From Lineus longissimus (taxonomy: Eukaryota; Nemertea; Pilidiophora; Heteronemertea; Lineidae): 64,000 nucleotides of DNA. The notes beneath the pieces are model-generated. The model saw nothing but the letters and a program-made list of their open reading frames with translations, was not told the DNA's origin and searched no databases. Both the position numbers and the translations under genes were made by a program. The stretch covers positions 7,254,001 through 7,318,000 of the forward strand of contig NC_088314.1 in assembly GCF_910592395.1 (NCBI RefSeq), written 5' to 3'. Shown piece after piece: positions 178-61,721 of this stretch; positions within the stretch are counted from its first letter, which is position 1; the number at the start of each line of letters is the position of its first letter.

Positions 178-3100
178 GTTTTCGTCGATCTAGCTGGGGT
201 CAGGCTCCGGTATCTGGCCAGATCGGGCGAGCGAACGGCCACTGGTACTACCCAAAGTCTTACATATGCGGCGTAACAGTCCCTGGTTCTGCCAGGGTTA
301 TTGAGTACAGTAGTTCTCCCGGTGAAACTTTTGTGACATCTACCATAACACCGACGACGACGATGGTCTCTGACACTACATCAACAACAGGTAAATCCGT
401 TCCAGAAAATTAACTGCTTTCAAGCTAATGCTTGGCCATCGCTAGGCGTTTTGGCGTCGATTGAAAGGCGCCAAATTCGAAATTTAGCCAACAGGAGGAA
501 GCGGGGCGGAGCGTGTGTGGAAAAAGATGAATTGATGACTCTGTAGTAAAGTAACTGAGTAGCCTAACGTTAATGTTGCATGGTGTTTCAAGTTACGTGG
601 ACTTTGTCAGGAAGTCATTTTTTATTGAAAATGGGACGTTTTATGAAAAGTCACATGCATTGGCCATTTCTGATCTTTTAAATTTTAGATACACGTAGAA
701 CCACGGAGAAGATTCGCATTTTTTCTGTTGCTGCTAGAATCACATTGGCTCCACGTGACCACAAGGTAAAGGATGGAGGTGCCGTCAGTTTTGTATGCCA
801 GGCATCTGGTAGTCCAGTCCCGGATATCGAGTGGTTGAAAAATGGTAAAAGAGTGCCGACTCGTGGTCGATATAAAGTACTTGACATGCCTTTTGGTTCG
901 GTCTTAAGAATTGAACCGGTAGAAGTGGAATTCGAAAAATACAATGCGACGATATCATGTGTTGCACAAAGTGGAATAGGAGAACCAGCGCGAGTCTCAG
1001 CTAACTTACAAGTCTATCCTCCAGGTCGAGGTAGGTAATATTTCCTTTTTTCATGCTTATAGCATTGCGTAACTCTAAAAATTAATTTTATTCTTTATGC
1101 GGTTACTTAAATCATACAGTCATGTTGTAGTTCGTGCGAAACTGACGGCTAAAAAACAACATAACAAGTATAAGATTGTACTTCACATGAGAGTTTTGCT
1201 GCTTAATACTGACCAACAAAATAAGTATAAAAACGAAAGGGTTCCTTTATCATACTGCTTGGTTTGTCTTTCTTTTTATTAGTACCAAGTGGCTTTCCTA
1301 CAATTACTCAGAATCCAAGCTTACGTGCTGTCGAAAAGGGCCGTACCTCGGTAATGTCTTGCGCTGCCACGGGAAATCCAGCCCCGACCATAACATGGCT
1401 GAAGGACTTTATACCGGTTGAGTTGAGTAACCCTCGGCTGACCCTTCTTAGTTCTGGTGAGTGAGGCTATGATCTGTGTACACTTCACGAAAATACGACA
1501 CTCCGATTTTTGGTTTATGATTTGCCGACACAGAAAGCACGGCTGAAGTTAATCAAGCCGTCATCTCCACTCAGTGAAACAGTCTTAAGAATCTAAAGGC
1601 ACTCACTTTGAAAAATAGAGATTTAAAGATCGAACGCATGTACATTAGCTATGATCGATGACGACACGTCATTGTAACGATATAATGACCCCTAGGTCAC
1701 GACGTGGCCCCCAGTCTTATGGACATGTATTTATAATATAATGTTCATCTGTGAATGATATTTAACTAATGAAGTATTCCTTTAAAATCCGATCGAATTG
1801 CTTCCCCGTTGTCACAAAGATAAGCCTTGAATGTGTTCCTTTACGAGCCAAATGTCCTGAGTTTGATTTCCCCTTTTTTTTAAGGCTCGTTGCAGATTGA
1901 GAAAAGTAATCACACTGATGAAGGCCGCTACGAGTGCGTGGCGGAAAATAGTGTGGGTGAAACGTATTCATATCCCGCTTCGCTTTACGTTCGAGGTATG
2001 TGAACCCCCTGGCTCATGACTTGGCGGACCCCTTTTACGTCATTATTAGTTTCGATGGTCTTCTATTCTTCTACAATCGCTCCCGTTCCAAATCTCTACG
2101 AAATGGCTAGTTTTATATCGGCGCCAGACTGAATAAAACGGCTGCAAAAAGGGGGATTTCCTCAAAATGTGCTTTTTTCTTGAATATAATTTTTGAACCC
2201 AACAACAGAAAAAAAATTCCATTGTTCCTTTATCCTAGCCCCATTTTCCTTTTACCATTCACCCAGTAGGGATTTGAGAGGGGTTTTTTTCTGATGGAAA
2301 TTTCATTAAAAAAACATGGCACGTTTGAAGAGAAAAAAAAACAAAAAAACGGAAGATTTCAACAACGGTCGCAAAGTCCCTAAAAATAAATGGGGGATCG
2401 GCGGAACAGCCTGAATCACAAGTAATATATATTTGTCTTTTTTTAGTGCGTAGAGTACCACCTCACATAACGAGTCTTCCAAAAAGTATCGAAGTCCTGC
2501 CTGGCGGATCGGTCAATCTTACGTGCGTTGCTGCAGGCTCTCCCAAGCCATATGTGAAATGGCGAAGGGCAGACGAGGAACTTACACCAGAAGAAAACGT
2601 CCAGATGGGAGAAAACGTCTTAATGCTGACGAACGTGCGAGAGTCAGCTAATTATACTTGCGATGTGGCTAATATCCTGGGTGCCATAAGTGCAGTAGCC
2701 GAGGTCAAGGTCAAAGGTAATTTTACCGTCCCAGTTAATTATGAGTCCATAATGGACTCTTATTTCTGTATCCATCGATAAAGTCGTGGTTTCCGTCGCT
2801 AATTTTTTTTTATCAATTAGTAAAAATAACTGTGTTATAGCATGATTTTTTTCTCGGAATGACCGAATCATCTTTCAAAATTATTTTTTATCTGAACTTA
2901 CGTTGCATATATGAACTTATTCTTCAATTCACAGCAATCGTTCCCGGAGTTGAACTTCCCGAGGCGCTCGCATCCTGCAGCATGAAAAAGGTCGGCAGTG
3001 CCGCGCTGCGTGAGATCGGCATGGACGTCACATCGATGGGCTCAGAGGGCTTGTGTGGAGATAAATGCCGCGAGAACGTGATGTGCGATAGCGCCACCTT

Positions 3101-4788
3101 CAATAAGGATAAGAACGAATGTCTGCTTCATCTCAGACAAGGATTTGCGATGCCGCGACTAGCACGGAATAGCTGTTGTACGACGTATATGAAGGTGTGC
3201 CCTTTGATAAAAAGTAAGTACTGTGTCTCTCATAACTGGCCATACGGCATACTACGATTTGTGGACAAGCCTGAAACATGAATTAAAATACCCTTTAGCA
3301 TGTTTACTCTCTTTTAACATTCAGAGGATCAGTAACAAATATAACACAATATAAATTTCTTTAATTTTCGTTCTAAATGCATACGTGTGTATAGATTAGT
3401 GCGAAGAGCACCAGGCTAATGCTGTGATCAAGTTGTGCATACTCGTGTAGCAAATACTGATGCCCAAAGATATGCTCATAAAAGAGACGGGAAAGAGTCA
3501 ACATAGTGTGCTTGGACAGCGGTGACATTTCACCAAAAAAAATGGCGAAAAGAGTGCCACTGACCTTGTTTACATGTACGAAGCAATATCCTAGGGGAAG
3601 GGTGCATCCGATCGAAGAACTGTTGTTTATCTGCAGTCTTTATTATACTGCAGAATTAAGTATATTCCGCAACGTCGAATGGGTAATCCGACACATGCTT
3701 GTTGCACATTTACTACTGGTCAAGTTAAAAATATTTTGGCGTTTCTCTTCTTTAGGTCCCGTACCACCTCCCAAAGAACAAATCCTGTGCCCCCTCGACC
3801 TGGGCAACAGTAAACCTTCCGATAAGTATGCGTATAGAGTTCTAAGGTACGATAAAGTCATATCTGAACTTTTGCATGAATTTTCTTTCGTACATCATGT
3901 ACATGATGTTAGTATTTTCCTCAATTTCGTGCTTAAACTTTTATTACAAAAGAACAATAGTTTTCTTTACACATGGTCCACTTTTTACGATGTACATCAA
4001 GAAAACGACGAACCTGGCGGCCAAAATAGTGACCAATGATGTCAGTTCCCAATGAAAAAAAAAACTGATCGAGACACATGCGATCATCTAATTTTTGTAC
4101 TTGATTGCAGGCTAAAGAATAACTTTGAACGCGGACTGTACTCATGCCGTACAGACGAGCTGTGTGCTGGAATTTCATTTGAGATTCAGAGCGGGAACCG
4201 CGTCGATTTCACCTATTATTACAATACAACCTCTGAGCCTGGCGCCTCGTTTTTCAACTCGGCCCGCCAGGCCATCAAGAACTGTAGAACAAGCGGTAAG
4301 TACATCATAATGATCGAACAACTCAAAACGGCACACGCGGGTGACTATTGAAGGGCACGGCAAAAGCAACAATACAGTTCCTGTGACAAATCAGTTGACT
4401 ATTTTTACCCAAAATCAGAAAGCATTGCTTGTACTTTTTGTCGCTCCTACCAGCGTCCTCATAATATTTTTCATGCCTGCAGTTAACCTTTACATTTCTA
4501 GGACCAACATGCAGACATCTGAAGGCGGTTTTTGGTATGACCCTTACGAACATCACCCAATACCGCAAAAAGACAGCGGTGGAAACAAAGGCTGGGTGCG
4601 TTGCCTCCTGTGAAAGAGATCAAGGTGTATGCTCGGCAGCAACATTTCGTTGGAGAGACAAGGAATGCTTGCTCTATCATTTCCCCGAGGACTATGAGTA
4701 TCAGTTAGCACCATCTGATTTGATGGTGTCGACCTGGATTGAGGACCCAAGTCTGTGCTCCGTGCGGCGTGGCGGTGAATATGATTAG
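178..4788 (+). CDS. LAR-like triple-Ig protein with C-terminal PAN-like cassette (5' end outside window)
   Basis: Exons read from splice sites and phase: 178-390, 689-1030, 1283-1456, 1885-1995, 2447-2716, 2935-3213, 3756-3846, 4111-4295 and 4502-4788, giving 649 in-frame residues to TAG. Order: a segment ending in a Thr/Ser-rich linker; Ig1 ([23 protein letters not shown]); Ig2 split over two exons ([26 protein letters not shown]); Ig3 ([36 protein letters not shown]); then a PAN/apple-like domain (C-x3-C-x5-C, MCDSATF), two linking exons and a second PAN-like domain ending TWIEDPSLC. The Ig domains resemble Ig1-3 of LAR-type receptor tyrosine phosphatases nearly residue by residue, including the RRVPP start of Ig3. 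There is no FN3, membrane span or phosphatase before the stop, so the product is probably secreted or matrix-bound. Almost all introns are phase 1, as expected of shuffled extracellular modules. The start codon and signal peptide lie to the left of the window. The family assignment of the Ig domains is firm; the ligand is unknown. Confidence 0.85.
2935..4788 (+). other. PAN/apple-like four-exon cassette, copy A
   Basis: Exons 2935-3213, 3756-3846, 4111-4295 and 4502-4788 (279, 91, 185 and 287 nt) form a block that recurs at the 3' end of the minus-strand gene at 12729-17731. The first and last exons each hold a PAN/apple pattern (C-x3-C, then a Cys, then S/A-ATF). The second encodes [17 protein letters not shown] and the third [15 protein letters not shown] with FTYYYN. 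Entry phases of the four exons are 1, 1, 2 and 1. PAN domains usually bind proteins or carbohydrates; the middle two exons match no domain I recognise. Confidence 0.8.
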
Positions 4789-7329
4789 AGCGATATAGAG
4801 TCTGACTCGGACTTGGTCTAACTTCGATAGAACTATCGACGGCCGAGTTGCTGCTCTAGCTGATACCACTCGCATAAACCGGATACATGCACATAACGGA
4901 CTGTATTTCAAGTTCCGGCCCCGCCTTGTTTGTTTTCAATATGTTTTTTAACATCGGACATGGTTCTCTTTACAAATTATATTGGACATTGTCTGGTCAT
5001 GCGTATAGGCCCTAACGGATTTCGTATAAAATTCCCTAAATAATAATGGATATGTATTGTATTTGTCATTATCATCTTGCGAAATTATAGCAAACTGCAT
5101 GTACATTAGGAACGTTTACATTATCATTATCTGTATAGGCGACCTTTTCCAAATTGCTCCGCCGTCTTTTTTGGTTTGGGAGTTCATAATGCACACCCAA
5201 TGCCAACACAAACATGACGAAAGCTCTTATATTCGCAGCGTTTGAGGGCTCGAAAATATTATAAAGATGCAGGTTGAAGATCACCACAACATAAACATCC
5301 ACCGATTAGATTAAGTATAATAACATGTAATCACTAGATAACTGTAGCAACCTTGGAGATGAAGATGTATTGCGAGTCAGTAGGATGCGCAACCTCCTCT
5401 CTAATACTAAAATCACCATATATTGTATTTCTAAGTAATAGAGCAAGCAATATCATATTGTACAGTTTGAGTGTGGTTTATCTGCTAAATCTCAGTGCAT
5501 GCGGCCTCCACTTGACGACGAATCAGCGACCAAATTAGGGAAATGGGTTCGGTGACCGAATCGTCCACGAACTGAGAGTTCGTCCAGGCGTCAACCGGTG
5601 AGATCGACCACCAAAATATCACGAGATCTTGCAGGAAGGCGCGTCAAAGTACCCAACAAGTTTCCAATTACCATCAAGACCTCACGTCACGTGACTTATT
5701 TCTGGGACGCTAGGTGGATCACCCCATAAGACTTTTAATTTATGTTCTTATACTCGATAGCTATCCTCGGCTATGGCCACTTCTACGGATTTACGGTGCA
5801 TGCATTTACACAGCGGTCAGGGCAGGAAGAGAAGCTATATGTTCCACCAGAAGGTAGGATCATCTACTATACATGAATATATGTCAGTTGCAGGTCTTTT
5901 TAATTATTAGCGTTAATATCAAACTGTGAAAATTCGAAACCCGCCGAAAATAACTTACGGCCTTTTACTACCAATGGAACTTTCGAGGGGATAAACGGAT
6001 AGCTCCATACTGCAGCGATCGTCTCTTTGTACGGAAAATCATCACTACCGCCGGTCTCATTCTGTCATCAGAAAGACACCTCACAGTGATTGGCCTCACC
6101 GGAGACAGATACCAACATGCTCATCGACATCCGCATAGGTGGCGCTGATTTTGACATCACCTCTGTGTCGTAACAATTTAATACTGTCTACAGTGACAGT
6201 CAGTGACACGTGTAGTGTAGCCTCGGTGGTAGTTTTGTTGGCACTCTCTTGAAGTCATATCAAAATATCTCTAGGAATTCGAGACGCATGCATCGCATTC
6301 GCTTCGCGCACGAATGTGATCTTGACTGGTCTGGTCTGCATGGTTCGATGTACATGCATTGTACATGCACTGACGTCATTACTAAACTTTCTTCATTTAT
6401 GACGGCGATCTGACCTGGTCTGGTCCGGTCTGGTTCAATAGTGTTACCGTGTAAACGGCACTCTTGAATTTCCGCTCATATAAAAGAGCAACCAGTCACA
6501 GAATAGAAGTGTAACTAGGGAAGTGTTGCAACACTGTTGTCATACTCAACAATCTATAATATATCATGACTGACCCAATTGATGATGACTGACCCAATTA
6601 ATGGCTGACCCCATTATATCCTATCAAAAAACTGCGGTATAAAAACATGTTTGTTCAGCCTGACATGACTGATACACTTTTAACCTCTGCTGTTGCAGAA
6701 TCGAGGCCACGTATTTAACGGTAGGCCTATATGCTCGGCCTCGAGTACCCTGATGGGTGATAAATCATCTACCCAGTTTAACTGTTACACGTCCACGATT
6801 TGTTGTTTTCTTCGCGTCGTGTGAAAAGCACTCGTGATTCAAACCAGGAAACACTGGATGATTTTTTAAAATTCCGGGTTTTTGCGAGACGGAAATAGTA
6901 CAATGATTGACGGAAATGTTCTGACCCATCTTCGGTGGATTCACTGGTTTGCCAGTGTGTCTTCAAGACACCAGGTTTTGTGTTAAATACGTTAGGTAGG
7001 TTTTTTCAATCAGGCCTCAAAAACTGCTGAATATTGTACAAGTGCTTTTTTCCACGTTTTTTGTGCTGGCCTATTTTGTATTGTATCTGTGTAATAGAAA
7101 TCAATGTCCCCAGGAAAAATGTCCGGTATCATTAATATCATAAATATGTGTTTTACTGGCAACCGAAAAAAAAAGGTCGGAAGTTAGAATTTGGTAGTGG
7201 GTCAACGCATGCCGTATTTGTTGTATCACATATTCGAATCATACAATACTTTGTGACTTAGTAATTCAGTTCATTTTTCATGTAGGATTCCGCATTCTCA
7301 GGGAGGGCTCGACTGACCACGTCGCGAGA
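4789..7329 (+). other. Intergenic region between the Ig/PAN gene and the otopetrin
   Basis: About 2.5 kb with no gene I can support apart from one weak exon candidate (5761-5853). It is AT-rich in its first kilobase, which should include the 3' UTR of the upstream gene, though I see no perfect AATAAA close to the stop. Short degenerate repeats occur around 6540-6620 (copies of GACTGACCCAATT). The otopetrin promoter and any 5' UTR exons should lie in the last part. Confidence 0.5.
5761..5853 (+). CDS. Possible orphan coding exon
   Basis: A 93-nt stretch bounded by an AG acceptor (CTCGATAG) and a GT donor (GAAG|GTAGGA), open in the phase 1 to phase 1 frame. It would encode a segment beginning ILGYGHFYGFTVHAF and ending KLYVPPE. 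I recognise no family. Its phase does not fit the first otopetrin exon. It could be an unrelated exon, a relic, or chance. Confidence 0.2.
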
Positions 7330-10300
7330 ATGGCCCCGAGTGTCATCACCCTCGGCCTGGCAAGGGCGGGGACAAAGCATACATCCCGGGCAAACGAGCC
7401 GGGACAGAACAAGTTCAAAGCGAGGTAAAAACCTTTGCTCGTACCCTCGTGGCACTTTATACAGTTGCTGTTGTGCAAGTTGTCGATTCTCTTGAAATGA
7501 CTATCCGTTTTGTACAAGCATAAACGTACAGTGATGATACATGCCCGAAGGGAGCTGTTCACATTGATATCATGATCTTTTATGAAAGGAGGTCATCAAA
7601 TATTGGGATACTTAAAAAATTAGCACATGTGGTGCTAAAAATCGAGGGAGGCGGCCTCTTTAGGGAAGTAAAGGGATTTTGTCGCCAAGCACTGGGGAAT
7701 GTTATTTTCAAAATTGGGCACGGCCAGATTCCATTGTCACTGTCAACTCATCTGCATACACTCTTTAGGGTACATTCATCCACCTTTTCAGATCTGCTAT
7801 GACTCAACTGATGTGTGGCATCTACTGCATGATGACCTGCGTGTTTGGAGCAGTCTTCCCGATCAGTGACGCACTGGCCCAGACGACAGAAGGCCACCAC
7901 CTGTACTACACTGAGGTTAGCATCCTCAATATAGCATTACTATACCGAATGTGTCAGACGTCCTTTCAGAACACGTACACTAGAAGAACATTCTACAGGT
8001 TATCATATCTGCACGGTTTTCCCTTTATCAGACGTCCTTTCAGAACACGTACACTAGAAGAACATTCTACAGGTTATCATATCTGCACGGTTTTCCCTTT
8101 ATCACTTGAACTATCGATAATGTCAATCAAATTTGTGTGAACATCACAAAAATATATAATTTAAAATGTTAAAGCACAGATGTTTCAATGAAAAGTCAGC
8201 AATTTTCCTAAATTTCACAGGCTAATACCAGTTCTATGTGTACGTCCGTCTCGGGTCAACCTACACCAATGACGCAGTCTCTTGCACTGCTACATGTACG
8301 GTCTGGGCGTCATAAATTACACCTCATATTTCCAGGTATTCCACTGCTACATGTACGGTCTGGGCGTCATTGCCTACATATATTTCCTCTTGCTTATCGT
8401 GATGCAACGACGAATGCTGAGAGCATCCGGGAAGTTGGAGGACATTGAACTGGATGTCATTGCCGGAATGCAATCAGTATCAGCCACTCGAAGGCGAGGT
8501 AAATATTGTTTTGTAATAATCAAGCAATTCGCCACTTTCCTCAAGCAGAAATCATGTAGGACATTGACCAATCAAATCTCCCGTATGTGATCATGGCCGT
8601 GCTGTCTGTGCCGAACAAGCATGATAGCTCTATTCGGATTGGTCAATACCTGTCAGGCTAACTTCTTGTCAAGATACTGAAATGTGATAGTAATACCGTA
8701 AAGAGTGGCCTTTGCTTTAGAACAGGCAATCAAACGTTTCTTTCAGAGATTGTAAGTGATAAAAATATAAAGTTTATTCCAATCATTCAACCGCTTTCGA
8801 CGACGTCTTACCTCTCGTCTGAAGTCTGGTCTTGTGATATCATGATAAATACCAGTCCCCTACCCAATGACGTTGTGACGGCGGTTTTAAGCTTAGTTTT
8901 CGTTTGGATTGCTTCGGAATCAACCCAGGTAGTGCAGTCAGCATCATTTCTGAATAGTTTAGCAGCTCTGATGCAGTACAGTTTTACATAAGACGCTTCT
9001 TTTCTCGTCAGGGGGTTGTGATTTTAGCGACCAGAGATCGGAAATGGCTGCCGCGGCGCGGCTTCTGGCCGAGAGGGAATTGAAGCAGGCCCACGATAAA
9101 GAGATGGAAGACTTAGAAAAAGAGGCCAATGTGACGTATGAAGCAGAGGGGGTTAATTTCTACTTGCGTCTAGGTGCAATGGGTAAGCGCATTGTTCAGG
9201 ATCGTTTGTAAGAAAGTGCTGGTGACAGGTGAAGTTGAATCGTACAGGTATCCTCATCAAGTAAAAGGAACTATTTACTGCTGCTCTCCAACTAATTAAC
9301 CTAATTTGTCCCGTTTTACGGATTTGCAGGGTTTGGAGTGGGTGGAATGGTCCAGTCTGGTTTCAGAATCTCCGAACCATTTGAGAACCCGTATGCGATG
9401 AATTGTCGAAGTATCCTTTTCCTGCTGAATGCAGCATTGTATCTTGTTTTCGTGTTCCTGCAGACCTTCTTTATTTTCAAGTATCACAAGGTAAGAATGA
9501 TGGCAGTCGGTACTCATTTTCGTAGTATACGCCTAAACTTCTTGTCTCGTCAGGTGTAGACAAACCATCAGAATGTATCGCAGATGAAAAATGAATGTAT
9601 GACGGAACTTGTTTAGAATATCAAAATGTCATTAAATGTCCGGGGAAAACATCTCGGACACCCTAGTTTGTGGTTGCGTGTGGAACTCTTCTCGTCTGAC
9701 AAATGAACACCCACCCTCGACTTCCATAGTCAGGCGTATGCACCTCCTCTCGCACACGTTCCTGCAGCCCGGTCATTTGTGCCGGGTTTTGCACTGACGT
9801 TCAGGATGATGAACACCAAAACTGACAAAATGAATCCAATAAGCCTACCACATTTCAGGTTGTCGTTCACAAGCACAAGGCTTTTGTTCGTTTCTGTCTG
9901 ATGCATATTCTTGCCGCAAACCTGTCCGTCTGGTTGTCGACCACCACTCACGAAACTGCTGAAGACATTGGACGGATGTCTGCGAAGTCGGTTTCAGGGA
10001 CACAAGCAGCTTTTATGAATTACACGACCGGTGAGTAGTAAGTAGGTAGTGACTGTCAGTCCGTGGGAAATTACATATGTATGTGTCCAATCCCATTGCC
10101 CAGAGGGCAACATCCGCTCGATGCCTTTTCCCGTAAACTATCCCTATGGCATGATTTACATGCCAAGAGATATCGCGGGTTTGTATTGCAGAAATGGTTT
10201 ATTAGTACAGATCCTAACGTCAGGTAACGTTACTTTTTTCCACAGTAAGACCTATATATCTTTTTGAATGGCGTTTAGCAGCTTTTGTACATGAATTCCT

Positions 10301-11510
10301 TTTTTCTAGCACGAGAGTCGCAATTCATCATCCAGTTCTAATAGGAGGTAGTTTCTTTCATCTTCTCCTTTTAGCTGGAGCGAAGTTGTGGCGATACGAA
10401 CAGGTCGGAATGAATTCCAGTGCTACTAACCTATCCTTGGACATTTCCGACCAAGATACCGGTAATGTAAACCACATAAATGACATGCTGAAATGCCATC
10501 AGTCGCAAACTCTCTCCGATCGAAGCGCTCCCTACCTCTTTCCCTGTCTGATCGAATACAGCCTCATAGGCGCTGCGGTGGCGTACAGGACATTCCTGAA
10601 CGTCGGAAAGACTGTCGCAAAGGATGATTCTAACGACTCAGACAAGGATGCAGTACAGTTTTCAGAACCTGTCGAATGCCACAAATCAAACAGGGGTCTC
10701 TTTCTTGGTCTTTTGATGATACTTGTGACATTTGTGAGCGTGGCACTTTTCTACGTATTCGAAGAGGATAACCGGAAGGATGTCTCTGCGACAATTTTTT
10801 TATCCTCGGAATTATTTTTGTTTGCGATTAGTATTATTTCATGTATTATTGGAATGTGTTACACAAGAAGATTGGCGTATGTCGGACTGTTAGACGAAGA
10901 CTTTTTCGATGATAAATTGCTGCTCATCGCTCAGATTGGTATTTTTCTTCTGTGCACATGCGTCTCGATATCGTCTGCGACTGCGCTCGTTCAAAACATT
11001 GATAATGGCATCATGACACTTCCGGCGATGTACCTCGGCATGGCATTGTTCAACTTCATCCAATCATCGATCCAGACTGTTTTTATTCTGGACGGTCTGC
11101 GTCGTTGCGCGGCAACGAATGACCACATGACTCAAAAACCGGGCAGGGCTGTGATCACGTTTCTTCTCGTTTGTAATCTCGCTATGTGGACTGTTAACAC
11201 TTTCGAGACTAAATCAGCCGAAGTTGTGGACATCCACGTAGATTTCTTCCGTTATTTGCCGTGGTCTATAATCATGCATTTGTGTTTTCCATTGGTTATT
11301 TTCTACAGATTTCACTCCAGTGTGTGTTTGAGTGCTATTTGGCATACGGCGTATGTAAAAAGAAACATTGAGGACTACGGTCAGCAGATAAATAGTGTCG
11401 TCCCGGCGATTCGACTTGAGGAGTGCCCCCAGGGAAGCGAATCGGGGTGCTCAACTCCACCCTATCGGGGTCGAAAACAGGCGACGTATCTGTCTCTGGA
11501 TGCAGCATAA
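7330..11510 (+). CDS. Otopetrin-type proton channel
   Basis: Seven coding exons in consistent phase: 7330-7424, 7792-7915, 8336-8498, 9012-9182, 9330-9490, 9859-10030 and 10375-11510; 673 residues. Otopetrins are proton-selective channels with 12 membrane helices in two homologous halves. Visible landmarks: TM1 with CVFGAVFPIS; TM2 with YMYGLGVIAYIYFLL; a cytoplasmic charged loop; FGVGGMVQSGFRISEPFE and FLLNAALYLVFVFLQTFF; KAFVRFCLMHILAANLSVW; then, in the large last exon, LFPCLIEYSLIGAAVAY opening the second half, four further hydrophobic helices, FLLVCNLAMW, and PLVIFYRFHSS near the end. The ATG at 7330 has A at -3 and G at +4 and gives a short cytoplasmic N-terminus running straight into TM1, as in other invertebrate otopetrins. 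An in-frame Met at 7799 is an alternative start. Family assignment is firm. Which paralogue it is, and its gating, cannot be told from this sequence. Confidence 0.9.
7955..8102 (+). repeat. Perfect 74-bp tandem duplication in an otopetrin intron
   Basis: 7955-8028 is repeated exactly at 8029-8102 within the intron between the second and third coding exons. The perfect identity indicates a very recent duplication, a polymorphism, or an assembly artefact. Confidence 0.9.
8285..8370 (+). repeat. 29-bp copy of the otopetrin exon 3 start
   Basis: 8285-8313 and 8342-8370 are identical over 29 bp. The second copy is coding (HCYMYGLGV) just inside exon 3; the first lies in the intron, 57 bp upstream. 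Confidence 0.85.
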
Positions 11511-11607
11511 TCACTCTTTCCATCTCATGATCTATATCATCGGGGGAAATAACGTCATTTCCTCTTGCCGTTATTTCCAACCCAAGCCTGTGAATTTTGT
11601 ACTCCAG

Positions 11608-11613
11608 AATAAA
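11608..11613 (+). terminator. Poly(A) signal of the otopetrin gene
   Basis: AATAAA about 100 nt after the stop codon at 11510. No competing signal is nearer. Confidence 0.6.
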
Positions 11614-11793
11614 AGTGGCGTTAACTCTACGGGAAATTGTCGAGTCTGGCAATTTGAACTGCTACTATATAAAAATTTGATTATGATGACCGGGAAGATA
11701 TTCTTGTGAGATGTCGAGCCGCGATTTGGAGCAGCTAAGCAGGAGTCGCGTAGTTTGCAGTTTATCTTATCACACACCCCACATTTCCCTTGT

Positions 11794-11938
11794 ACCGTAT
11801 ACTCTAACCATAATTCATGCAGTCTATTCTATCCCACCGGCGCGGTAACACTACTCATCATTTCCGTTATGCCGTATGTGACCATAATTCATGCAGTCTA
11901 TTCTATCCAACCGCCGCTACCCTCATCATTTCCGTTAG
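11794..11938 (+). repeat. Diverged two-copy tandem repeat
   Basis: Two units of about 70-78 bp sharing CATAATTCATGCAGTCTATT and CATCATTTCCGTTA, starting near 11794 and 11872. They lie between the convergent otopetrin and FN3/PAN genes. Confidence 0.7.
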
Positions 11939-12566
11939 ACTCACAATTTGCCCAACGAGAATAAACAAAGTTTTCAAAGCCACTAAATCATCTCTATTCA
12001 CTTTATTCGGTTTACCACTGTCATCAGATATCGTTTAAAAATAACCGTGTACATGTACATGATTTTTCACCCAACTTGGTACTTACATTGATGAAAGGTA
12101 CGGAATTATCTTTTCCACTAAATGTTACGCACATGTGTACGATAATGTTCTTCACTCCTCTATATACACGGGAGAGTAGGCTAAGGATACCTTCATGATG
12201 AATCAGCCAATAGTACATGCCCATATTATCATGTCCGCCGAAACCTAAAGCCATTTTGTTCATCCAAGAGTTTCATATATATTCACTGTACCGATGTTCA
12301 GATGTCGACAATCAGGTTACCTGCATTCCACAGTGTTTAAACCTATGTCGTGTTTGTGGGGTCAGTTATTTCAATATTTTCGGTGTTGCCTTATCATAAC
12401 TCCCAAGCGGGTTGATACTGGCATGTGTGAACCTTTGTCAGTGTAACATTAACACCTGAAATGGTAAATATCGTTCCACCTTCCATGTGATATTGGAAAA
12501 CACTCATTAATGTACATGTCACCATAAATTTCCCGGTGTCCGTTTTGTGAAGTATAATTGTAAGTT

Positions 12567-12572
12567 TTTATT
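12567..12572 (-). terminator. Poly(A) signal of the FN3/PAN gene
   Basis: AATAAA on the minus strand (TTTATT on the plus strand), about 155 nt downstream of the stop at 12729. Confidence 0.55.
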
Positions 12573-12728
12573 TCATATAAAATTATTCAATCCATCAATC
12601 ATAAATTGGCTTACAGCAAGATCTTAAAACAAAGAATCAAAAGATTCTTATTTGGTTTTCGACCTGGGATCAATGCATTATCATCATCCTCATTCTCAAG
12701 TAACACAGTCTTCTACCCGACTGTGATG

Positions 12729-14684
12729 CTACTTCCCCGTGCCTTGTGTGCATAATGCAGGAGACTTGATCCAGGTCGTCTTTTCGGCGTGACCAGTGTA
12801 TCTCTCCAATCGATTTCTATAACCACTCGGGCCCGCGCTCTGAGAAGGTCGACCGTAAAGATTGCAATCAAGTTGGCGGAAGTAATCAACAAAGGCAGCG
12901 GCATGGCAGCGGCTGGCCTTCTCACAGATATCCAAGCAATCACCAAGTTTGCCCCTGCGGCCGATCTCGCGGCGGAGTGAGACTGTGGAATACAAGAATG
13001 GCCAGTTGGCCCTGATGCTCTTCTTGTAGTAGGCATCAAAGAAGCCGCAGTTTGGACCTGAGAACGAGTAGGAAAAACGCAATTACGCAATAGAAATAAA
13101 CGAGTACAGGAAATAAAATAGATACATGCAACAAAGAACATTCATCAAATACAGGATACCACACGAAGATGGGTGGTGTGACAACGATTTCAGGCTGCCC
13201 GGTCCAACAAAGCATCTGATTTCGTTTTTCGATCTTAGTCCAAGCCTTGTAAAATTGTCAAGAATTCAAACCGCTAAACCATCCCCTGCAGTCTAGCCGC
13301 TGCTTTGAGCGTCGACTGGAAGGCCAATTAAGTGGCCAGCTTGGCACATTAGGTTTCCAAAAAACACCGATAGGTGTCGTTATTATCGGAGAAGCACTAG
13401 ATAAATATATATTCGCACTCGGGCAACAGCAGTTTTTGACGTTTAACCAGAGTAGACCAGGTTCTAACTGCATTATATCAGTCACCTTAGCCACCAAGTT
13501 TGACCCCGAAGCTCCTGCCTATTCTCGCCGCGTAATGTTGTGAATCCCTTGTATTCTGAGCCATACCTACCAGTTGGTTGGCAGTTTTTCACAGCACTCC
13601 TATTTGATATCGGCGTCCCTTCATCAGGGGTGGCATCGTAATAGTAGGTGAAGTGCAACTTGCCATTCGCTGGATCTATTTCGTAGGAGAGGCCTGCACA
13701 CAGCTCGTCTATGCGGCACTCGTACGAACCGTCTTCATAGGTGGCTCTGTATCTGAAATCAAGTCGCCATGTTGATTTAACGGGACGAATGTCAATGGCA
13801 TTACATTATTTGATGTCATGATCTTAAGGCATTTGTCTTTATTACCAGGTACCTTTATCTTTCTGACATACCTTTTTAATTTGTAGGCATACTTCTTTGA
13901 CGGTTTCGGTACACCCCTATCTAGGGGACAGATAAGTTGGCGTTTGTTACGATCCCTACCAGCTGAAAGGAATAATCAAAAGAGGTTGATGAGCTTTAAA
14001 AAGCTATATTCGAATAGCATTCATTATCAAATGGATGGTAATTTATTGTTCTTCGGTCACAAGTGGCAAATTAAAAATTGTTACTTCTAAACATTCGTAC
14101 ACTTCAAGACCTCATTCATGAGTGACTCAACAGTCCATGTTGGAGGCGCCCTCATTGAAGTTCCCCGAAGAGTTCGTCACGCCTCATACCCTCGCAATTG
14201 GTAACGGTTGCCAAGAGATATTTGCACCGCGTACTGACTCTGCACCAGATTGGCTAGCGAACTCTCGCTCCGCAGCAAATGGCTAGCTATCCTCTCATTG
14301 GGAGATTGACCCACGAAAGTCAAGAAAGGGGAACATTTTCCCAAAGGCTAAAAAACTGATAGACACCACAATATCCTATCAACTTACGGTACTTGACAAA
14401 CGATGGGCAGTCCTTCTCAAACATGACACTAGTGCCTTCCTTGCCCATCCAACCAACTCGAAAATAAATTCTTCGCGGGTGGATTTCACACGTCTTCGTG
14501 GTGTTCGTGAACGTGGCACTGTCACACATTGGTACTTCAAGGCATTTTGCAGCACATTCCTCCTCTGTCTTAATTTCGGGATGTGCTTCCCAATCCGGCG
14601 CCATCATCCTTCCATCGTCTGTTCTAGTCAATGTACAGTTAAGAAGGACTGGGGGCACATCGCCGTATGGCCCAATGGACACCC
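12729..14684 (-). other. PAN/apple-like four-exon cassette, copy B
   Basis: Exons 14684-14388, 13962-13872, 13752-13571 and 13057-12729 (297, 91, 182 and 329 nt) match copy A exon for exon with the same intron phases. The second exon is 91 nt in both copies. The best-conserved stretches are MCDSATF, CPLD-x-G, KYAY, CR-x-DELCAG and FTYYY. The final exon is the most diverged. Confidence 0.8.
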
Positions 14685-17600
14685 CTGCAATTAATTACAT
14701 ACTAGCTAAAAACATCATCATCATCATCATCAACATATGACCTCCGAATGGTCTACTAAGATAAGTCACCATACCTAGAAGAAGCCGATCAGGAGAGTAA
14801 CATGAAAACATACGTCGGATTGCAACCCAGCTGCGGATAAGTGCCTTATACAAAGCGGTACTGCGTACACTGCTCGAAATGCTGGAGGGTATAGGGCCAT
14901 TGCTCGTCTGATATTAAAACAAAAACATAACATAACATACGTAAATTGACTGAGCGAAACTTTGCAGGAGTGTGACTTATTCCAAATGGCAGGCAATAAC
15001 GTCTTTGGAAGTATAGTAACATTTCATCATCTGTACGCGCTTCATTCGACCAAGGCTTCCTTTCTGGAGCTATTCAGTGATCCACTCCAGGAAATGCGCA
15101 CAGAGGTCAAACCCAGCCCCTCCGTCACCTTGAAGTTCTTGGGCGGTGAAGAGGTACATTGTATAATCACTGAAAGCGCATGATCACTAAGTTAACCAAT
15201 TAACCGTTGTCAATATCTCCAGCTGCTCTAATTTTCCATTCTAAGCCACAGTACATCGCTGTGAATCGTGTCGTCCAGCTGATTCGTGACTCTTCGGAAT
15301 GATGTATCTTCTTTTCCCTACATATCATCCAATAACGATCAATTTGGGCGTAGCACTTTCAGGGGCGAGCAAACAGCCGGGAATTATTTTTGGTGCACGG
15401 CGTACCTCAGTCGTAAGGCCCCTGCTAAATGTCAGTAAATTTTTAACTCGCATCAGTTTACTATAACATTTCATTCTATCGTACAAAAACGCCGCCCTGC
15501 AAGAAAGTTCATCCAACTCGCAATGTTTCTTCAAGTCTGGTACATACCTTTGTCCGTCCTAAATTGAAGTTGCTCTGTTTCAGGTCCTGCTTTGTCAGCA
15601 CTTGTAAATGCTCTCACCCTGAAGAGATAGTCGGTATCCGCGTCAAGGGGGAATGCGTTCCCAATTGTAACAGCATTGACGCTCGTGTTCATGTTGTTTA
15701 ACCACTGTGATTCGGTCTCTTTTACCCATTCCACCATGTACTTCACTATTTTCCCCTTTCGGGAAGCCTTTGCCGGGGGTTCCCAAGTGACGCGCACGGT
15801 GGTCGGACTCAGTCCCGTTACGCTTAGGTTCTGGGGAGGAGCGGATGGGCGTCCGTCGGGTGCCTTAACAGTCAAGAGGGCATACTCCCCACGTTCGCCG
15901 TCAATATCGCCAGCCACTCTGATATTGTACTCTAAGCCATTTTCAGCGTATATCGCAGTAAATGGCGTCCTCCCAGCGATTTGTCTCTCCTCTAATTGAG
16001 TCTGGCCTTTTTCACCAAATTTCATCCAGTAGTAATCGATCGGGTCAGGGGCGTTGGCTGGGGGATCCCAGGACACGGTGCCAAAGGGTGGATCATGATA
16101 GATGAATGTAACTCGTATATTTCTCGGCGGGCCAAGCAAGAAAACAGCTGCAAGCGAACAAGAAAGCAACTACAGCCTATCGAGCAAATAGAGATAGTGT
16201 TACTATAAGGATGTCCTATATACTGTGTCTTGCCTGTGAGTGTGTTTTTCTGAGTGAAATTGACTTAAAGAGTACCATTTTCTCATGAAACAGACCATAG
16301 CTTCCAGTTGCAATGCTTTTATACTAGCACCAACTGCTGTACGTACCTTTGTCTGTTTTAAATTGAAAGGTCGGCGATATGGGTCCATACCCAGCACTAT
16401 TAAAAGCTCTAACTCTGAAGACATAGTCTGTGTCTGGTTCGAGGGGAGTTGAATCACCAACTGTAGCAGAGGTATCACTCGTGTTCAGGTTGCTAGTCCA
16501 CAGACGCTGAGCTTCACCAGAATCTTTCCGCCATTCCAACATGTAGTTCACAATCTTTCCTCTTCTTCCACTCTTCATCGGGGGATCCCATGCGGCGTGC
16601 ACAGAGGTCGGACTCAATCCCGTCACGTTGAGGTACTCGGGCGTAGCAATTGGCCGTAATTCTGGTGCCTTTACGACCTCGAGTGCATATTCCCCACGTT
16701 CGCCGTCAATATCTGCAGCAACGCTGATCTTGTAGATTACGCCATTCTCACCCATAATGGCAGTGAATGGTGTTCTTCCTGTGATTTGTCTCTCCTGTAA
16801 ATGAGTCTGGCCTTCTTCGCCAAATCTCATCCAGTAGTAATCGATCGGGCCAGGGGCGTCGGCTGGTGGGTCCCAGGTCACGGTGCCGAAGGGCGGATCA
16901 TAACGGATGAACACAACTCGAATGTTCCTTGGCGGGCCAAGCGCTGCAAAGAAATTTAAACACGCTGAAGTATGAAGAAAGCGCTCCTCCTACAAAATCG
17001 ATTTGAAAGCCAAGCGTATCATGAAGTGGGTGAAGGAAAAGGTAACATTTCAATGATTGAACGAGTACGAGACACAGTGATCAATAGGGAGTTTCCGCAT
17101 CGCTTACGATTACGATTACGATTACGATTTCAAAGTCGTAATCGTAATACTCTCAAAACCGGCATGAACCAGAAATTTAGTTTCCGTATTCACACCAACG
17201 ACTTGATGTACTGTAGTATAGGCCCTATACTCTGCTTTCATGCTCTGGGTGCACTTTCACGGCGCTAAAACATGATCAAAATCGCCGTCGATCACATTAA
17301 GTGATATTATTTCATTTCTGCATAACTCAAATTGTCTTTGACAGGTCCGGGTCATCGCGTTATCACTCAGGTCAGTTATCTGATAAGGTTGCGGACCGGA
17401 GCGACTGACCACCCAAATATCACGATAGGGAGTCGCGTAGTTTTACCAGGCTAAAACATCGCCATATCTCGCCACATCGTCACGCCAGATGACTAATTTT
17501 GGTATCTACGGTCAGCCTATCCAATGAAACCTAAAATTGACTGAAAATGCAGGCATTTGCAAGGGTGACCCGATGCCCATAAACTTTTCGACACTTCAAA

Positions 17601-17731
17601 TATACCAAAAGAGCGTGGTGCAGGCATTGAGAGAATAATCTCAAGATTAAATAGCACTTACCGTCAATAGCCACTAATGCCTGCAGCAAACAGCAACTCA
17701 ACAAGATAAAAGGAATCTTCATTTTCGTCAT
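12729..17731 (-). CDS. Secreted LAR-like FN3 protein with C-terminal PAN-like cassette
   Basis: Minus-strand exons 17731-17662, 16943-16347, 16147-15548, 14684-14388, 13962-13872, 13752-13571 and 13057-12729 give 721 residues. The first exon is a signal peptide (MTKMKIPFILLSCCLLQA). Each of the next two exons encodes a pair of FN3 domains, starting LGPPRNIRV and ending TDK; the second domain of each pair (NLSVTGLSPTTVRVTWEPP, then TDYLFRVRAF) closely resembles the seventh FN3 of LAR-type phosphatases. The last four exons are the same PAN-like cassette as at 2935-4788: CLEVPMCDSATF, ICPLDRGVPKPSKKYAYK, ECRIDELCAGLSYEI with FTYYYD, and a final domain ending TTWIKSPALC. There is no membrane helix and no phosphatase domain, so it should be secreted. 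An alternative upstream Met would place about 25 residues before the hydrophobic core. The model is firm; function is unknown. A soluble competitor or ligand in LAR-type adhesion is one inference. Confidence 0.88.
15081..15360 (-). pseudogene. Decayed third copy of the FN3-pair exon
   Basis: In the intron after the second FN3-pair exon, the minus strand holds three collinear remnants of that exon. About 15360-15322 reads DRYWMI (DYYWMKF in the intact exon). 15295-15203 reads RFTAMYCGLEWKIRAAGDID (PFTAIYAENGLEYNIRVAGDID in the intact exon). 15148-15081 reads PPKNFKVTEGLGLTSVRISW (start of the second FN3). Stops and shifts separate the blocks, so it is not coding. Order and spacing match a once-intact exon. 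Confidence 0.75.
17103..17148 (+). repeat. ACGATT repeat with inverted partner
   Basis: Four TTACGA units followed by their complement (AAAGTCGTAATCGTAAT), able to fold into a hairpin. It lies in the first intron of the minus-strand FN3/PAN gene. Confidence 0.6.
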
Positions 17732-21656: not shown

Positions 21657-24600
21657 GATATTATTGTAAAACATACTGTCTCGGTGGTTATATACAGCAG
21701 CTCATTACCAAGTCAACACTGACAATATCTCGCTATTTCTCCAGACAGATCAATACTCTTAGTGGTACACGTGTATGTCAGCTTGTCTGTTGTCATGGTA
21801 ATATTGTGCATTGTATCCCAAAATAATATGACACAGTTAACGTATTTATACGGCTGTGCCTCGGTGTAAAAAGAATATATTTCCCCTGAGTTGTCGTTCA
21901 TGACCATTGCTTTCTTGGTAATGTAACCATCAAAAATCCGACGAATTGAAATTGAACAAAATGTGTGAATGCTAAGCGGCATGGTCCAGAAGATAAGTCG
22001 GCTTCCCTCTTCCAGACAAAACACTTTATTATATAAAGTATGTCTACAATAACGGTAGATTGATATATAGTTGGCCTTAAAAAAATAACAGTGTCACAAT
22101 TTCGTGGGTTATTTGGTGCGATGATATCTTATTGGCCAATTATGGTTCATTACAGACTATAAAACGGAAACCAAAAGATCATGTCAGCTGGGCCCGTATC
22201 TGACGGCAGGCGATATAAGCTTACCCATGGATTTTTAACATACTGTTACTCTGCACTCTGAAGTTTGTTGTGCCATCAGTGCTTGTATTGTTGGATTTCC
22301 TTTTCATGTTTTCTATGCAATAGTTTGGAACATGACCAATATTACTATCCACATTCATCTCTTGGGATACGAGCCAATAGGATGTGAACGTATTGAAACA
22401 TAACAAAGATAAGAATATCATATTGTAAGTAGCGGCAATTTGAGTAGCTTTTACTACTCTTAACTGCGTTGTTTACCTTTAGAAACACTGTACATTATGA
22501 TGTCTCTTTCTTATAACCTACACCTGACCCGCGTGGGCGAATAATATGATACCAGTTTTCCTTCGACAAATTGCCAACAAAGGAAACCTGCCGCGCGGAT
22601 AGGAATATAAATGACAGATCGAAACTTTGTAAAGTATTTCACATGACAGATCATCCATCATTGGAGTTGGTGGTTGGTTCCGACAACTTGATGTACTACG
22701 CCCTCTTTCTTTCTTCATGAGGCATGGTGCACGTGTAAAAGTGATATCGAAGGGTCAACTTGGGTACGAGATTTGTTGTTTTTTTCATGGCCGGGTCTAT
22801 TTGGCAAGCCGCTCGCCGAACAGGCTTCTTTTTTTGTCCTGTTTGGAGAGTCGCTTGCCAAACAGCACTAAAAAGCCACCCTGTTCGGCCCGCCGGGCTT
22901 GCCAAACAGGTAAAAAATCTACCCTGTTTGGCGAGCTGGAGACTTTACTTTAATATCAATGAGTTCGGCTCTCCATTCAGGACAAGAAAAAGTCGCTGTT
23001 TGGTAAGCCGGGCTTGCCAAGTAGTCACTTCCTTTTTTCATACAACAATGGCTTCCAGCAGGACTGTGACTTCTCCAAATAGTTGAATTCTCCAAATCGT
23101 TGAAAAACCAATGAATTGCATCCACTAGAACGGGGTGTAACCAGAGACCTGCCTGAAAATCACAAGCAATTTTCCAAGACAGCCCCGCAAGACTGGTGAA
23201 AATCTTTTTCAGAGATCAGCAATAATTTGATCCTACAGGTGGCGGCTCATAGCGGCAAGCAGGGGCATTATCCTCTTGTACAGGTAAATCCCGCTCCCAA
23301 GCTGTCCCTTCAATAAATCTTCTTTACAGTATGTATTGATGTGTAAAAGGGGTTATTCATAAATTCTATCGACGAATCGCTTCAAATCGCAGGCATTTCA
23401 TAAAATATTGCCAAAGAATGGCAAAGAGTGTCGTATAACCGTCTTCATTATTCTTGCTTATTATAAATACCACATTGGCCTGGATGTAGTTATTGCTGTT
23501 TTTGTAAAATAACAATTCCTGCAGAGATTAAGGCCTAGATTGATATATATAATAGGCATATTTTGATATATCTTGGGGAGTGGCGTGGCACTGAGAACAT
23601 ACGTCGAAACTTTCGAGAATTGTTCAAGCACACTTCACGTAGTATGTTCAGCACAAGGGGCATGAGTGAATTGCTCTAGGGCCTGTACATAATGTGACGA
23701 AGGCTGTTCAGGATTGGCAGTTCATTTTGCAAATAAGGTGTAACTGTCTACTTTTGGATATTACAATTTACCTAGGGAACGCAGACAATACAGTGTCAGC
23801 CAGTTAATTGCATGTACAGTACTATACTATCAAGAATATAGCTTCAATTTCTGATTCGTGGGATAGTTACTTCAAGTGTGTCGAAGTGAAATATTCGAGA
23901 AATCCAAACGGCGAAGGAACCATTTACGTTACCACGTACATGTACCACATACATGAGTCATCAGGTCACAAATTTGTTAATTCAATTTGGATAAATCATA
24001 ACTATTTCGCATAGAATAACTCAAAACAATGGCGAGGTAAGTCAAAATCAAATTAAATGGATTTTGTTTTCAAGAACAAACCTGCACGTTATTGCAATGC
24101 AAATCGGAAATGTCTCTGATAGGCTGGTCAGTTATATCTTTTAATTTTTATTTCTTACATAAGTAGAATAAATCCTATTAAAAGTCCTTGATATCTCGTG
24201 AAGTTTGAGCATTTAAAGATCTACATGTACGCCGTCCGTAAAATTCAGTGTTTGTCATTAAACTTGAAAATATGCCAAGATGTACTGAATATGAATTTCA
24301 GGATTGCCGTTGTGTAGACAGATATTCAGATGCTATCTGTAACGAGTTAAGGAAAGTTGCCGTTGTGTAGACAGAAATACAGATACTATCTGTAACGAGT
24401 TAAGGAAAGTTGCCGTTGTGTAGACAGAAATACAGACACTATCTTTAACGAGTTAACGAAAGTTGCCGTTGTGGAGACAGAAATACAGATACTATCTGTA
24501 ACGAGTTAACGAAAGTTGCCGTTGTGTAGACAGAAATACAGATACTATCTGTAACGAGTTAACGAAAGTTGCATGCATGACAACTGCACTTCTGCATATC

Positions 24601-61706: not shown

Positions 61707-61721
61707 CATTCGATCTTCACA

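Follow-up and report, generated by a model that had tools for sequence, protein, structure and literature searches.

What do two genes encode when each joins a different part resembling the ectodomain of a LAR-type receptor to the same C-terminal tail? The question arose in a 64,000-nt stretch of the genome of the bootlace worm Lineus longissimus (Nemertea; GCF_910592395.1, NC_088314.1, positions 7,254,001-7,318,000, forward strand), hereafter the window, within which all feature coordinates are given. A sequence-only reading had proposed that these genes (here A and B) are neighbours and belong to a lineage-specific family of soluble proteins made from a synaptic receptor ectodomain.

Gene models and the shared cassette

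Splice models were built for both genes; their exons, together with one relic exon in gene B, are as follows.

Gene A, + strand:
178..390: end of the sixth TARSH_C domain and Ser/Thr-rich linker (phase 1-1; 100% identical to residues 1168-1237 of P0103)
689..1030: LAR-type Ig1 (phase 1-1; I-set 2.3e-12)
1283..1456: LAR-type Ig2, first half (donor at the meA site)
1885..1995: Ig2, second half (donor at the meB site)
2447..2716: LAR-type Ig3 (phase 1-1; I-set 1.5e-14)
2935..3213: cassette, first PAN (PAN1; phase 1-1; PAN_1 29.7 bits, cut-off 21.4)
3756..3846: cassette, domain X exon 1 (phase 1-2; no Pfam match; 60% identity to gene B over 25 residues)
4111..4295: cassette, domain X exon 2 (phase 2-1; no Pfam match; 46% identity to gene B over 65 residues)
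4502..4788: cassette, second PAN and stop (PAN_1 27.2 bits, cut-off 21.4)

Gene B, - strand:
17662..17731: start codon and signal peptide (identical to P0001; hydropathy 2.16)
16347..16943: first FN3 pair (phase 1-1; fn3 6.1e-21; second FN3 LAR-FN7-like)
15548..16147: second FN3 pair (phase 1-1; fn3 1.4e-19)
15045..15364: broken third FN3-pair exon, a relic with stops and frame breaks (tblastn, 44-51% identity, two pieces)
14388..14684: cassette, first PAN (PAN1; phase 1-1; PAN_1 37.6 bits, cut-off 21.4)
13872..13962: cassette, domain X exon 1 (phase 1-2)
13571..13752: cassette, domain X exon 2 (phase 2-1)
12729..13057: cassette, second, divergent PAN and stop (PAN_1 17.1 bits, below the cut-off of 21.4)

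The model of gene A (649 residues) was 100% identical to residues 1168-1816 of the 1816-aa public predicted protein P0103, and that of gene B matched the public predicted protein P0001 (721 aa, complete) letter for letter, which bears out the proposed arrangement of Ig1-3 in gene A and two FN3 pairs in gene B on the same four-exon cassette. All internal junctions were of the AG/GT type with fitting phases, including those predicted beforehand to join the LAR-like parts to the cassette (2716-2935 in gene A and 15548-14684 in gene B). Contrary to their earlier description as neighbours, the two genes are separated by an otopetrin-type reading frame (10218-11510, + strand). A tRNA scan (bacterial settings) and an Rfam scan gave no matches.

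The bulk of gene A lies to the left of the window and encodes, according to P0103, a signal peptide, a PAN-like domain (PAN_4 match narrowly below the cut-off, 26.0 vs 27) and six near-identical TARSH_C domains (Pfam, six stretches, 755.9 bits, cut-off 27; the window exon 178-390 alone scored 14.4 bits, below this cut-off). The six repeats share 82.0-99.5% pairwise identity and, judged from these values, the array is either young or homogenised. There was no FN3 domain among the Pfam matches of P0103 and no Ig domain among those of P0001. The latter is publicly named "tyrosine-protein phosphatase Lar-like", a misleading name for a protein with no phosphatase domain.

Comparison of the two cassettes revealed 33% identity (E 1e-39), and the match of 142 bits has to be set against a maximum of 28.5 bits in shuffles with fixed Cys positions (500 made, 411 of which aligned at all); on the grounds of these shuffles and of the identity with public proteins, chance or artefact was set aside as the source of the mosaics. 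The Ig matches of gene A clear their Pfam cut-offs. Three of the four PAN domains pass the PAN_1 cut-off, the failing one being the second of gene B, and a profile of the second PAN aligned with that of the first in hhalign at a probability of 53%. For the intervening domain X, neither the copy of Pfam nor the solved structures (PDB) searched gave a match, and it would represent an addition to known domains; a reading of it as a third PAN found no support (hhalign against the first PAN, probability 0.2). In an AlphaFold model (five sequences) the mean pLDDT was 50.6, with residues 491-721 below 50, so that most of the cassette was left unresolved and the quality was insufficient for comparing folds.

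Phase 1-1 applies to the exons of the Ig domains (Ig2 being split in two), the FN3 pairs, the TARSH end and the first PAN, and domain X is encoded by two exons of phases 1-2 and 2-1. Insertion, duplication or loss of a 1-1 module exon therefore keeps the frame, as shown for A and B. This fits the expectation of exon shuffling; the shuffling itself we infer.

The claim that neither protein has a membrane span or a phosphatase domain was upheld. The hydropathy maximum (19 residues, outside the signal peptide) was 0.84 for P0001 and 1.43 for P0103, compared with 3.36 for a LAR control, and no phosphatase domain was found among the Pfam matches of either protein. Both proteins look secreted.

Origin of the Ig and FN3 modules

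The Ig block of gene A can be assigned firmly, by its sequence and its intron positions, to the LAR family. The best solved structures were PTPRS and PTPRD (approx. 1e-87; the nearest other family, Robo2, 1.6e-56), and in the Ig tree the block falls within the LAR clade (fork 84/96), on an end branch of 0.34, equal to the tree median. The introns after positions 1456 and 1995 coincide with the meA (in Ig2) and meB (Ig2/Ig3) sites, at which no insert-like peptide was found with simple patterns.

Ligand-contacting residues were compared by alignment. The heparan-sulfate lysines K68/K69/K71/K72 of PTPsigma, as given in a passage of PMC5645493, align with K, N, K and R in gene A, i.e. three of the four basic positions are kept. 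By the same kind of count, the IL1RAPL1 patch has changed at three of the five residues that could be placed (N66, R88 and R91 of PTPdelta align with T, E and F), while K59 and R68 look retained. The former two results lead us to favour the Ig block as a putative glycan or matrix binder above synaptic partnering; the apparent retention of K59 and R68 leaves room for binding of the synaptic type.

The FN3 pairs of gene B had been likened to the last FN3 domains of LAR, and this holds in part: the second FN3 of each pair fits FN7 out of eight, and the first matches no particular domain. FN3 domains were numbered 1-8 by us along LAR sequences from fish, LAR having eight of them. FN7 was the best of the eight reference domains for all six second FN3s (6/6), and none stood out for the first. 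With E up to 1, each exon gave two fn3 stretches; with E up to 0.01, all of P0001 gave two, the strong match being confined to the second FN3 of each pair.

In the PDB, the profile of the second FN3 ranked titin first, through summed weak domains, and scored Dscam at 90.8 and neogenin at 71.5 bits (chain totals) vs 71.0 bits for the one-domain PTPRF chain 2edy; a single second-FN3 sequence placed 2edy at the top of the one-domain chains (54.8 bits). A fair case can thus be made for a LAR origin (FN7-like) of the second FN3, and the profile scores would speak against an exclusive one. For the first FN3, the best chains after titin were PTPRD (36.6 bits) and fibronectin (35 bits). Its identification as LAR FN6 would rest on position, with no reference domain preferred, and was not adopted. 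The FN3 tree does not resolve and was left out of the proof.

The two FN3-pair exons share 74% DNA identity over 195 codons and have a dN/dS of 0.31 or 0.42.

A family of cassette proteins

Protein searches identified five cassette proteins, all from L. longissimus, with unlike modules in front of the tail:

P0001 (gene B): FN3 pairs
P0002: LDL-receptor-B and FN3x4
P0003: two LamG-like
P0007: FN3x4 and TARSH_Cx2
P0103 (gene A): PAN-like, TARSH_Cx6, LAR Ig1-3

Candidates for the search had to measure 0.55-1.75 times the length of the query; cassette proteins longer than approx. 1,870 aa, and the full-length LAR of the worm, would thus be missed. In one cassette search, scoring was applied to the 7,999 candidates with most words in common. 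The lineage specificity proposed earlier agrees with these results, and should be read as no other source found in the database searched, within its coverage of nemerteans. Among the best matches of a literature search by title, none described a family of such PAN-X-PAN mosaic proteins.

The cassette tree, ((A,P0007),(B,P0002),P0003), had support of 100/100 on both inner branches, and module content differs inside each of its two pairs; the cassette of P0007 is 63% identical to its paralogue in gene A, behind other modules. The signal peptides are alike in sequence when placed side by side (judged by eye). The LAR Ig block occurs in one of the five proteins, the others carrying laminin-G-like, LDL-receptor-B or TARSH_C modules. 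The notion of a family made from a receptor ectodomain is therefore not supported in that form: on the sequences compared, the unit uniting it is the signal peptide together with the PAN-X-PAN tail, and not the receptor piece.

Possible roles of the mosaic proteins

The reading that we prefer, at roughly even odds (about 0.5), is of a nemertean family of secreted mosaics, with A and B among its members, anchored by the cassette in mucus or matrix and using their modules as binders. By sequence, each protein starts with a signal peptide similar to those of the others, carries interchangeable modules in its middle and ends with PAN-X-PAN. The phase 1-1 module exons would have been gained, duplicated or lost by exon shuffling. 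Gene A carries LAR Ig1-3 as genomic exons, and gene B a duplicated FN3 pair. The cassette may keep its protein in place within mucus or the extracellular matrix, in parallel to LET-653 of Caenorhabditis elegans, whose PAN domains bind a luminal-matrix partner and retain it in that matrix according to PMC4970718, and the modules would supply each protein's own binding face. We infer function throughout, the matrix role by analogy with this one nematode protein. A term search of the main text of a toxin-centred mucus proteome of Kulikovia (PMC11768458) found no PAN, apple, fibronectin or immunoglobulin.

That the LAR exons were joined to the PAN exons by annotation only, having come from a phosphatase gene, is barely credible. 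The public name of gene B points in this direction; however, in gene A 218 bases separate Ig3 from PAN1 and their phases match, a single public model covers this gene and includes a signal peptide, the cassette recurs in P0007 behind other modules, and P0001 and P0103 lack a phosphatase domain. Rather unlikely is a role as soluble LAR decoys or bridges, in which Ig1-3 of gene A would compete for the proteoglycan or synaptic ligands of the worm's own LAR, thereby tuning axonal or epithelial signalling. Ig1-3 is called the minimal binding region of LAR-RPTPs in a passage of PMC5645493, PMC8711739 reports or proposes that LAR ectodomains, once shed, act as paracrine ligands or antagonists, and predicted LAR-Ig proteins with no membrane span occur elsewhere (Tachypleus P0005, Scomber P0006, amphioxus P0008); the median branch length and the apparent retention of K59 and R68 are consistent with such a role. 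Against it stand the three replaced residues of the IL1RAPL1 patch and the lack of the LAR Ig block in four of the five cassette proteins, so that LAR competition cannot be the role of the whole family.

Secreted immune recognition of the FREP type, in which variable modules would detect microbes and the PAN-X-PAN tail would be a constant effector or oligomerising part, appears quite improbable. The constant tail with swapped modules, the high identity of the TARSH_C repeats, and the duplication and loss of FN3-pair exons would suit it, but these exons are constrained, with no positive selection, and no fibrinogen match was found by Pfam in the five proteins.

A bolder and rather unlikely reading is that of a nemertean multigene system whose signal peptide and PAN-X-PAN tail, the latter including the undescribed Cys domain X, stay constant and which repeatedly captured exons of receptor ectodomains, LAR Ig1-3 and an FN6-7-like pair among them, as secreted recognition modules, gene A perhaps being a diffusible or mucus-bound LAR mimic. 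Should the preferred reading be right, receptor exons would have been reused in secreted proteins: a single tail would have taken on modules from unlike sources, and related genes would have come to hold two regions that resemble one receptor (Ig1-3 and the FN7-like pair). The secreted-type Ig1-3 of gene A offers a directly testable ligand question.

Comparison with known systems

Gene A shares with the LAR/type IIa RPTPs (PTPRF, PTPRD, PTPRS, Lar) the sequence and order of Ig1-3 and the meA/meB introns, and gene B the FN7-like second FN3 of its pairs; unlike these receptors, A and B lack a membrane span, phosphatase domains and the full FN3 array, and are joined to TARSH_C or PAN-X-PAN parts. 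With TARSH-type proteins, for which we take ABI3BP as the comparison, the family shares the TARSH_C domain and, in P0007, its combination with FN3, whereas gene A has six tandem TARSH_C domains followed by Ig domains and the PAN cassette. Snail FREPs are secreted proteins of Ig and fibrinogen domains; they resemble gene A in that secreted Ig modules are followed by a C-terminal tail that stays constant, which is PAN-X-PAN and not fibrinogen in the cassette proteins.

LET-653, as described in parts of PMC4970718 (PAN and ZP), is likewise secreted, with PAN beside a separate functional module. The comparison is one of role and not of PAN sequence, and the cassette proteins have no ZP domain among their Pfam matches. 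Isoform X8 of amphioxus LOC144908651 (P0008) also combines a LAR-type Ig block with PAN domains and lacks a membrane span, but it has F5/8C in front and four PAN units at its end. When this one protein was compared with the cassette, the best alignment had an E of 0.007 across 30 residues and was no clear match; its PAN units match the N-terminal PAN-like domain of gene A at 39%.

Gene structure and the shared cassette

Nine exons were delimited for gene A (+ strand, LAR-type Ig1-3) and seven for gene B (− strand, FN3 pairs, i.e. two FN3 domains on one exon), with AG/GT at all internal junctions and fitting phases. The spliced protein of gene B is identical to the public prediction P0001 (721 residues), and the 649 residues that gene A encodes within the window match P0103 ("uncharacterized protein LOC135490709 isoform X2") exactly, at its residues 1168-1816. 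P0001 is named "tyrosine-protein phosphatase Lar-like [Lineus longissimus]", yet a Pfam domain search revealed no phosphatase domain in it. The two genes are separated by an otopetrin-type reading frame (10218-11510, +; Pfam 4.4e-73). Other features of the window are:

7954-8104, tandem repeat, 74-base unit x2.0, 100% matches
24304-24572, tandem repeat, 53-base unit x5.1, 95% matches
25622-27460, +, intronless BTB-BACK-Kelch reading frame, 612 aa stop to stop (Pfam)
58466-58798, tandem repeat, 83-base unit x4.0, 98% matches
61707-62978, +, reading frame of ankyrin repeats, SOCS box close to the C-terminus (Pfam)

The sequence-only reading had both genes running into the same four exons and then stopping, with a membrane span in neither. 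Both points were borne out: the phase series is identical, the cassettes are 33% identical (E 1e-39), and they align with 142 bits; of 500 shuffles with fixed Cys positions, 411 aligned at all, and none scored above 28.5. No membrane span was seen outside the signal peptide (hydropathy maximum 0.84 for P0001 and 1.43 for P0103, versus 3.36 for a LAR control).

The cassette consists of a PAN_1 domain, a cysteine domain (X) and a second, more divergent PAN. X (~85 residues, four invariant Cys in the alignment of cassette proteins) is the most conserved part, with a mean column identity of 67% versus 62 and 54 elsewhere in the cassette. Pfam offers no convincing family for it (of the five members, a single one matches a family, at 0.099), and solved structures include no relative (best E 0.49). 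The AlphaFold model as a whole was poor (mean pLDDT 50.6).

Protein searches found five cassette proteins, every one from L. longissimus, in agreement with the lineage-specific family proposed earlier.

Modules of the five cassette proteins (Pfam)
P0001 (gene B): middle, two FN3 pairs
P0002: middle, LDL-receptor-B, an EGF-like match under its cut-off, four FN3
P0003: middle, two laminin-G-like
P0007: middle, four FN3, two TARSH_C
P0103 (gene A): PAN-like, six TARSH_C, LAR-type Ig1-3

Their signal peptides are similar, as judged by eye, and their cassettes share 32-66% identity. In a tree of the cassettes, A pairs with P0007, and B with P0002 (support 100/100 on both inner branches); the front modules differ within each pair. 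P0001, P0003, P0007 and P0103 were placed on one sequence of 21,159,187 bases and P0002 on another of 21,663,950 bases. In the published assembly (PMC8593623), chromosome 7 (21.16 Mb) has the size of the former and chromosome 6 (21.66 Mb) that of the latter.

To the left of the window, gene A was read from the predicted protein P0103, which begins with a signal peptide followed by a PAN-like domain (residues ~39-83; PAN_4 26.0 bits, under the Pfam cut-off of 27) and TARSH_C x6 (Pfam, 755.9 bits) with a period of 189 residues and pairwise identities of 82.0-99.5% (15 pairs). The value of 99.5% is reached between copies 2 and 3 and points to recent duplication or homogenisation. The tandem array spans approximately residues 103-1237 and extends into the window at 178-390; the first in-window exon encodes the C-terminal end of the sixth copy, and this exon alone scores 14.4 bits, under the Pfam cut-off.

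Origin of the Ig and FN3 modules

The best 14 matches of the gene A Ig block among solved structures were all of PTPRS or PTPRD types (1.1e-87 to 1.7e-80), followed by Robo2 (1.6e-56). BLAST identity to the LAR-type sequences placed in a tree was 37-52%, except for one alignment with the amphioxus protein P0008 (27.5%), versus 23-28% to contactins, BOC, NCAM-like and another Ig protein. In a midpoint-rooted tree of 32 rows, hand-picked among protein-search matches and with long outgroup branches, gene A grouped with LAR-type sequences (24 rows, not all of them named) at an unstarred fork of 84/96 and belonged to no starred set; its end branch (0.34) equals the median. The Ig block of P0048 (Leptidea sinapis) also sits in the LAR clade, and its UniRef name, "Hemolin", is probably a misnaming, as judged from sequence. 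Introns of gene A coincide with the meA (in Ig2) and meB (between Ig2 and Ig3) insert positions described for PTPdelta (PMC4423211). Structures, tree placement and introns together uphold the assignment of Ig1-3 to the LAR family.

At the four lysines given for heparan-sulfate binding by PTPsigma (PMC5645493), gene A has K, N, K and R. Five of the six residues given for the IL1RAPL1 patch of PTPdelta in the same paper could be placed, by counting on the PTPRS alignment: K59 and R68 are apparently retained, and N66, R88 and R91 are apparently replaced by T, E and F.

The FN3 pairs had been likened to the last LAR FN3 domains; of each pair, only the second domain showed a fair LAR likeness, to FN7 of eight. 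Among eight reference LAR FN3s (fish sequences, numbered in this analysis), FN7 was closest to the second FN3 in 6/6 cases, with 63-71 bits versus at most 45.8 for the four from gene B and P0002, and 38.5 and 40.8 versus 35.4 and 39.7 for the two from P0007. The first FN3 had no distinctive LAR counterpart (best 16.6 bits). The label "FN6-7 pair" would thus take FN7 from sequence and FN6 from position. When a profile of the B/P0002 second FN3s was run against 241 domains of 78 proteins, a set biased towards LAR and contactin types, two LAR FN7 domains came top (79.7, 70.3), followed by FN4 (51.8), FN2 (46.0) and a third FN7 (44.3). Among one-domain chains of the PDB, PTPRF 2edy scored highest against the second FN3 of gene B's second pair (54.8 bits); with a six-sequence profile, Dscam and neogenin chain totals were equally high. 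The FN3 tree did not resolve and lends no support to the placement.

Gene B's first and second FN3-pair exons share 74% DNA identity (dN/dS 0.31 by NG86, 0.42 by YN00; 195 codons). A broken third one (15045-15364, −), located between exon 3 and PAN1, is best read as module decay.

Possible function and known counterparts

The architecture of the cassette genes is close to certain, and their proposed mode of action is a moderate bet. The gene models show a secreted-type architecture with a common tail and with modules that differ among paralogues; in gene B one module has been duplicated and a further copy has decayed. The tail would anchor or multimerise the protein, and the modules would do the binding. 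A role as LAR decoys is supported in principle by LAR ectodomains that are shed and for which a function as ligand or antagonist has been reported or proposed (PMC8711739), but it leaves unexplained the four family members without LAR Ig. A putative immune role is possible. In a toxin-centred paper on the Kulikovia mucus proteome, the terms PAN, apple, fibronectin and immunoglobulin are absent from the main text (PMC11768458), and the idea of a mucus function therefore gains no help from it.

For anchoring by the tail, the nearest functional precedent in the literature consulted is LET-653 of C. elegans: its PAN domains bind to a partner in the luminal matrix and contribute to retaining the ZP domain, the functional one, at its site (PMC4970718). 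Among 99 matches listed in one protein search, PF00024 occurred in two, P0007, which has no Ig domains, and amphioxus P0008, which comprises F5/8C, LAR-type Ig and four PAN units, without a membrane span. The PAN units of P0008 resemble the N-terminal PAN-like domain of gene A (39%, 8.7e-10, six-sequence comparison) and are barely like the cassette (best E 0.007). P0008 represents a second joining of LAR-type Ig with PAN, the F5/8C in front being its own. LAR Ig1-3 is repeated, without a membrane span, in Tachypleus P0005 and Scomber P0006 (P0005 to P0008 are all gene predictions). The cassette genes are a clear and uncommon example of apparent capture of receptor exons, joined to a previously undescribed tail domain, and fall within a known kind, the exon-shuffled extracellular proteins.
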